A stretch of DNA of 64,000 nt. It comes from Sphingobacterium multivorum. GTDB lineage: Bacteria > Bacteroidota > Bacteroidia > Sphingobacteriales > Sphingobacteriaceae. Within the stretch, counting starts at the first letter, position 1. The number at the start of each line of letters is the position of its first letter. The stretch lies in NCBI RefSeq assembly GCF_039511225.1, contig NZ_CP154261.1, positions 744,001 to 808,000 of the forward strand, read 5' to 3'. A model generated the notes under the pieces. It had not been told where the DNA came from, did not search any database, and saw nothing but the letters and a program-made list of their open reading frames with translations. Of the stretch, positions 32,765 through 33,509 are shown piece after piece. The position numbers and the translations under genes are program-made.

Positions 32765-33150
32765 GCGTGAGATTATAACTGAAATAAGAAGTCCTAAAAA
32801 TAGGTGAATAAATACGTTTTAGCAAAGAGGAAATGTAACAAATAGGGTGTGAAAACACTGTTGAAAGTGTTTTTGGGCACTTAGAAGTAGTTTGGATAAT
32901 AACGTGTTTGGGGTAGATCAATCGTTTGTTTAGTCTGTTAAAGGGGATATTTTATTTCGGGAATAGTATCCAAATTTAGGTGAAAAAATTTATGCCTTTT
33001 AACTGTATCTATCCCTGTTCTACGGAGCAGCTGTTCAGTAGCGGGCACAACGGAATCTGCTTTTCTGGAAACAGTCCCTCAAACGCCATTTTGAAAATGG
33101 CTATAATTGGTTGATACCAAATTCAAAATAAGCATAATATTTAATCAATT

Positions 33151-33251
33151 TTTAGACAGTACTTACTCAGTGCTTATTCAGTCTTCACTGACTAATCACT
33201 GAGCAAGCACTGAACAATCACTGAACAAGCACTGAATAAACAGTGTCAAAA
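33151..33251. repeat. Head-to-head array of 11-bp repeats
   Basis: Counting exact registers, three 11-bp units on the minus strand (TTTAGACAGTA, CTTACTCAGTG, CTTATTCAGTC; 33151-33183) are followed after two bases (33184-33185) by five units on the plus strand from 33186: CACTGACTAAT, CACTGAGCAAG, CACTGAACAAT, CACTGAACAAG, CACTGAATAAA, and a partial sixth (33241-33251). The consensus is CACTGARYAAK. The two arms are inverse complements, so the block can fold as a hairpin or cruciform. Confidence 0.9.
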
Positions 33252-33407
33252 GACGACATTTGATCCCTATTTAATGCCCGTTTGCTGTATCTAAAAACCA
33301 AAGCGAAAAGAAGGAAAGGGCTACGCCTTTGTAAAGAATAAATCGCTGTCGTGATGCTTCCTTTTTAGTCCTCGATTTATTGTAAAACTGAGGTTCGGGA
33401 AATGACA

Positions 33408-33427
33408 AAGGAACCCGAAGGTTCCTT
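33408..33427 (+). terminator. Perfect hairpin with CGAA loop
   Basis: Eight-base stem, tetraloop CGAA, followed by TATATCTTTT on the plus strand. It could terminate a plus-strand transcript; on the minus strand, downstream of ruvA, it lacks a T-run. Confidence 0.45.
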
Positions 33428-33509
33428 ATATCTTTTAGGCTACAGCATGAACAGCACGTATCCTTTATCTAATGATTAATATCGGATATGTTCAGCAAAT
33501 GTTTATGCA

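Follow-up and report, generated by a model that had tools for sequence, protein, structure and literature searches.

The repeat block at 33157-33247 of the window, the whole 64,000-nucleotide stretch analysed here from genome G000, appears with modest confidence and on comparison of related sequences to be a scattered and decaying copy of the regulatory DNA found upstream of DUF6266 genes, where arrays of short repeats would serve as phased operators that are probably read by the DUF6266 protein. The array would act as a multi-site operator on which bound protein subunits line up along a single face of the helix and reverse direction at the centre, and it would control the adjacent DUF6266 promoter. 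The binder would most likely be DUF6266 itself, acting in autoregulation and/or the upkeep of copies, a step proposed less firmly than the operator role. Solo copies, which stand apart from any such gene, could be by-products of some copying process and extra candidate binding sites. The solo copy in the window probably serves no vital function by itself, and its interest lies in the gene family to which it points.

The block lies in an ORF-free gap of 745 bases (32765-33509) between two minus-strand genes, presumably ruvA and a GH20-like hexosaminidase gene. Read from the sequence, it consists of two opposed arms of 11-bp units arranged around a 2-bp TT centre (33184-33185). On the plus strand, the short arm (33157-33183) carries two full units, CAGTACTTACT (33157-33167) and CAGTGCTTATT (33168-33178), and the partial unit CAGTC (33179-33183), all in the reverse-complement orientation CAGTRCTTAYT. 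The long arm (33186-33240, plus strand) holds five units of the form CACTGARYRAK, namely CACTGACTAAT (33186-33196), CACTGAGCAAG (33197-33207), CACTGAACAAT (33208-33218), CACTGAACAAG (33219-33229) and CACTGAATAAA (33230-33240), and is followed by CAGTGTC up to 33247. Alignment of the 20 copies in the genome places a terminal half unit, CAGTGTCAAAA, at 33241-33251 (plus strand), an edge at which the family consensus is CACTGTctAAA. A tandem repeat finder recovered the short arm at 33157-33182 with period 11 and the long arm at 33185-33236 with periods 11 and 22. Sequence and ORF coordinates thus bear out the head-to-head 11-bp block described in an earlier sequence-only reading of this gap, and the unit consensus given there, CACTGARYAAK, was nearly right but slightly narrow, the genome-wide form being CACTGARYRAK. 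Identity at lag 11 reaches 0.78 at the block (66-nt window), the top value in the 64 kb, and the other lags tested, apart from 22, gave at most about 0.57. In 40 first-order Markov sequences of 64 kb, which served as the null for lag-11 identity, the mean was 0.52 and no run exceeded 0.62.

Because of the head-to-head layout the block can fold, and it does so beyond shuffled sequences (DNA z -3.5, RNA z -3.9). A hairpin formed by the two arms had been proposed, and both strands are indeed foldable, but only part of the long arm pairs: pairing is limited to the short arm and the first long-arm units, and the remaining long arm is unpaired. This foldability, together with the very long stems (25-84 pairs) found in the array-rich genome G054, is what would be expected if a structural or regulatory RNA were transcribed over 33150-33440 with the arms as its stem. 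Several observations make such an RNA highly improbable. Pairing within copies is no stronger than pairing between swapped arms (-19.8 vs -19.6 kcal/mol for the A type, to which the window copy belongs, p 0.29; p 0.99 in G054), RNAalifold returned 4 near-invariant pairs with no compensatory change, no Rfam family matched at threshold, and the DUF6266 promoter is located after the array. The suggestion that the stem ends in the hairpin at 33408-33427 also lacks support: this hairpin (found by scan, no strand assigned) is a terminator-like structure after ruvA, outside the element, and at orthologous sites it is kept both where another array type is present (locus L052) and where no array is present (L059). 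The lack of covariation between the arms of individual copies favours a role at the level of DNA. Ten or eleven bases correspond to about one turn of B-DNA, and the period of 10 seen in other genera suits B-DNA rather than the 11-bp turn of an A-form RNA helix. The helical phasing, with period 11 or 10, likewise fits the multi-site binding array that the sequence-only reading had listed among its options, and the units would then be candidate protein contacts on one DNA face.

A DNA search of G000 with the consensus recovered 20 copies of an element of about 200-335 bp (E <1e-27), and a genome pattern scan found further arrays, including some built from other 11-bp units. Besides the array, the aligned copies have in common some 110 bases to one side, and to the other they extend up to 225 bases from the anchor, with the fullest reaching about 335 bp. 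All copies are intergenic and lie between unrelated genes in every combination of gene directions and in both orientations; the sole ORF overlaps are with two spurious ORFs, 75 and 77 aa long. The A-type element was found in 25 of 94 genomes of the genus Sphingobacterium; a scan of 16 genomes from other genera for its array pattern gave no hit. The block is therefore neither unique nor missing from close relatives, and the idea of a dispersed genus-specific element holds. Chance slippage that left no family behind would explain why unit number shifts by multiples of 11 between species, but the 20 copies with conserved flanks in G000 and their orthologues in relatives refute it and leave it a negligible probability. 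The spread of copies over the whole G000 chromosome might instead point to matS- or parS-like chromosome-organising sites bound by a nucleoid protein. This is extremely improbable, as copies occur in both orientations and all neighbour arrangements, the A type is missing from most genomes of the genus, and the copies are polymorphic with conservation no higher than that of their flanks.

In the window, BLAST and alignments delimit a degenerate A-type solo element at 33090-33370 (minus strand), which in the orientation of its parent gene comprises array, promoter region and first codons. The genus consensus matches 33114-33353 (G000:C1:777114-777353) with E 4.5e-60. Alignment to the parent copy upstream of the DUF6266 gene at L242 identifies 33111-33156 (minus strand) as the remnant of the region from array to gene start, where the parent promoter lies. 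By-eye comparison with the gene starts at L019 and L242 further identifies 33047-33104 (minus strand) as a decayed DUF6266 gene start, ATAGCCATTTTCAAAATGGCGTTTGAGGGACTGTTTCC..., for which the intact parent reads ATGGCAATCGTTAAAAATGGTGTTAATGGAACTGTTTCC.... Longer gene remnants with a weak protein match (tblastn E 0.002-0.04) are present at the ruvA site in L049, L050 and L207. More generally, the conserved border of the A type is the reverse complement of the gene start ATGGCAATC(A/G)T(C/T)AAAAATGG, and in solo copies the similarity either ends sharply near codon 7 of the DUF6266 gene or runs on as a decayed remnant. An apparent leftward extension of the element by 120 bp was rejected, as it is the DUF6266 coding start in orthologous gene loci. 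Adjoining the remnant gene start in the window is a near-perfect 22-bp palindrome, CTACGGAGCAGCTGTTCAGTAG (33020-33041).

An intact A-type gene, encoding a 219-aa protein of the PF19781/DUF6266 family, is present at L019 in G000, where an A-type copy lies directly upstream of it (Pfam PF19781, E 1.4e-13), and other species have the gene at about 15 loci. The association extends well beyond the A type: DUF6266 genes of the Sphingobacteriaceae are often preceded by a head-to-head array whose short repeats are one helical turn apart (11 bp, or 10 bp in some genera). With an array scored as lag-11 identity of at least 0.55 within 450 nt, a statistic calibrated on downstream controls and applied with the kinship of loci unweighted, 25 of 30 DUF6266 loci in the genus have an upstream array, compared with 0 of 30 downstream controls. 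At the same 30 loci lag 22 was found in 18, and the remaining lags in 0-3. Among 26 DUF6266 loci from other genera, 10 showed lag 10 and 9 showed lag 11, and none of the controls did. Arrays start near -180 in the A, B, C and several other DUF6266 lineages. G000 itself has five DUF6266 genes, among them those at G000:C1:2832740, 5616841 and 5452390, each with a cognate array. Four of the five are preceded by an array (degenerate at L239), and the remaining one stands second in a tandem pair. Such pairs, in which a DUF6266 gene is followed directly by a diverged second one lacking its own array, were seen at L219, L222, L236, L239 and others. The A-type element was present in all 24 genomes with an A-type gene and in 1 of 70 without it, a co-occurrence that follows phylogeny and in part counts the gene's own upstream region. 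Gene and array do part in places: no clear array precedes either DUF6266 gene of G049 or the two of G054's three that were examined, though these genomes are array-rich, and in G000 there are B-type solos but no DUF6266 gene with a B-type array. The gene family is present in 133 of 300 sampled Sphingobacteriaceae genomes, sometimes in many copies. A first look at three other Sphingobacteriaceae genomes (G515, G491 and G431) gave 37-44 DUF6266 candidates each, with 10 scored per genome, and these counts possibly reflect a strongly amplified DUF6266 family.

Across species the array unit matches the subfamily of the DUF6266 gene, not the genome. A-type genes are accompanied by CTTGTTCAGTG, MARVKNG genes by TTTATTCGGAT, MARFLKG genes by TTCGACAG-like units, the MAVIKNG gene by CTTCTTCGGTG and the MGILEDG gene by TTAGGGTTTA. 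Because the unit follows the gene rather than the genome, DUF6266 would be the likeliest binder, although a cis region inherited together with its gene would produce this match too, without recognition by the protein. The units are related to each other, as in CTTATTCAGTG (A), CTTCTTCGGTG (C) and CTTATTCGGAC (B).

In several DUF6266 genes a Bacteroidetes-type promoter can be recognised by eye after the array, for example TTG-N21-TATGTTTG in L239. As this promoter follows the array, the array would lie outside the transcript that starts there. In a type III toxin-antitoxin-like arrangement the tandem repeats would be an RNA antitoxin upstream of a DUF6266 toxin. In type III systems tandem repeats of about 36 nt immediately precede a small gene. 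The array system resembles them in this placement, in having repeats specific to each gene and in its several paralogues per genome. It differs from them in its repeat length of 11 nt, in its protein family (a Pfam scan of the A-type protein gave no match to ToxN, CptN or TenpN families), in its dispersed gene-less solos, which are atypical of such systems, and in the location of the array upstream of the likely promoter. A toxin-antitoxin role is accordingly highly improbable.

The protein itself gives few clues. PF19781 was the single match above threshold in a Pfam scan of the A-type protein, with no helix-turn-helix, other DNA-binding or transposase domain; searches of PHROGs and NCBIfam gave no match, no relative with a solved structure was found, and a search of a literature library found no paper mentioning DUF6266. 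A viral or plasmid origin of the family was considered and rejected, as DUF6266 had no matches in viral contigs or plasmids. It is a tentative possibility, less likely than not, that DUF6266 proteins form a novel class that binds or mobilises nucleic acids in a sequence-specific way by reading phased tandem repeats, with paralogues that would each have co-evolved with their own 10-11 bp code while spreading solo arrays, in parallel with but unrelated to RAYT/REPIN systems. The comparisons already tie a large uncharacterised family to a concrete and testable DNA target, a gene-specific array with one-helical-turn spacing. If DUF6266 does read its array, the many natural pairs of protein and unit would form a data set for a new DNA-recognition code, and the system would be a second, independent bacterial example of co-evolution between a gene and dispersed repeats.

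Solo arrays are changeable. At the ruvA site the same array as in the window is present in close relatives (L049, L050, L051, L053), a B-type array (unit ATTCGGACYTY, a type found in 39 of the 94 genus genomes) takes its place in L052, L054-L058 and L060, and no array is present in L059 and L061-L063. G000 and S. multivorum (G005, NCTC11343) differ here in the array region, within flanks that are 97-98% identical. At 15 sites compared between these two genomes the array is present in both, and its length differs by exactly 11 or 22 bases in 6 of them. Identity within solo arrays (0.9475) is like that of their flanks (0.930-0.949), substitutions are equally frequent, and this two-species comparison gave no sign of purifying selection on the solo arrays. 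Such behaviour is minisatellite-like and gives no hint of strong constraint. From two sites that are A-type in G000, L014 and L027, the element is missing in S. multivorum, so that these sites are polymorphic between the species. Copies therefore do come and go. A third candidate, L249, was rejected as an empty site in S. multivorum, as it has an array in both species. At L027 (3780-4181; G000:C1 about 4855100-4855500) the counterpart of the A-type solo in S. multivorum is about 700 bp of other sequence that resembles coding DNA, and similarity between the two genomes resumes just past the solo.

Alternatively, the array unit could be a REPIN- or MITE-like replicator copied by DUF6266 or by some transposase, with the gene-linked array as its master and promoter regulation secondary or absent. 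This account overlaps with the operator explanation and differs from it in making copying, not an operator role, the purpose. It would fit the roughly 20 copies of which one is gene-linked, the A-type copies missing at L014 and L027 in S. multivorum, the abrupt end of similarity around codon 7, a weak inverted match of the two A-type ends seen by eye (CC....TGAT.(T)ATTRCC), and a layout like that of RAYT/REPIN, with opposed arms, dispersed solos and a cognate gene that has a unit of its own (PMC3116915). Against it, neither the element ends nor the two polymorphic sites, where segments have been replaced in S. multivorum, revealed a target-site duplication or a clean empty site; G000 has no match to the Y1 transposase family (PF01797), DUF6266 has no similarity to transposases, and there were no plasmid or viral contig matches. 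Furthermore, B-type solos consist of the array alone whereas A-type solos also include the leader, so no single mobile unit emerges. Such a selfish miniature element is on the whole unlikely, and the operator explanation is retained.

Among known systems, the closest in layout is RAYT/REPIN of Pseudomonas and E. coli, in which gene paralogues each have their own repeat type in adjacent non-coding DNA (PMC3116915, PMC8266576). The array system shares with it head-to-head repeats, dispersed extragenic solos, a copy beside the cognate gene and a repeat type that follows the gene. The RAYT/REPIN gene, however, encodes a Y1 (HuH) transposase, whereas here it is DUF6266 in a genome with no Y1_Tnp match; its repeats are single REPs of about 20 bp rather than tandem 10-11 bp units in helical phase, and the layout described here is read from sequence, so that transposition would at most be a possible process behind it. 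Within Bacteroidota, the BrickBuilt MITE of Porphyromonas gingivalis has a 23-nt unit, terminal repeats like those of the IS5 family and a reported 4-bp target duplication (PMC4596501). At the level of a solo copy it resembles the present element in having about 19 intergenic copies per genome, a minisatellite within a leader/tail element, a unit number that varies between strains and long predicted stem-loops; it differs in unit length (23 nt vs 11 nt) and unit sequence, and the passages cited note no linked gene family (PMC4596501). By the tests made, the array system is a member of neither family and is formally RAYT/REPIN-like without the transposase. For the operator role the nearest likeness is to CarH operators and SARP boxes, where tandem 11-bp direct repeats at a promoter are bound on one DNA face with one unit per turn (PMC9304148, PMC10936776). 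The arrays here are likewise tandem repeats of about 11 bp in helical phase next to promoters recognised by eye. CarH and SARP sites, in contrast, have 2-5 repeats in one direction and are bound through known DNA-binding domains (PMC9304148, PMC10936776), whereas here two opposed arms have up to 5-7 units each and DUF6266 has no recognisable DNA-binding domain.

Arrays of mixed or unusual composition were also encountered. L313 in S. multivorum (G005:C3:534787) and L012 in G000 (G000:C1:1069049) are the same site with near-identical flanks; the former carries a hybrid array with a B-type long arm and a C-type short arm and the latter a pure C-type array, a contrast that suggests stepwise conversion of units. 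At L311 (about 2080-2290; G005:C9:1520480-1520690) an array of unit TTTCTTTGGTG adjoins an A-type array and is missing at the corresponding G000 site. G054 contains dozens of arrays, which form inverted repeats of great length that mostly keep an 11-base register. At 20 of its array loci (L159-L178) these are dispersed and imperfect, with units GGACCTTGTTC inside and GTTCCACTCTC outside. Finally, a genome labelled Flavobacteriaceae bacterium PS02338 carries an 11-bp array of GGTGGAGTTGA in 4.5 copies (L127:1014-1063).
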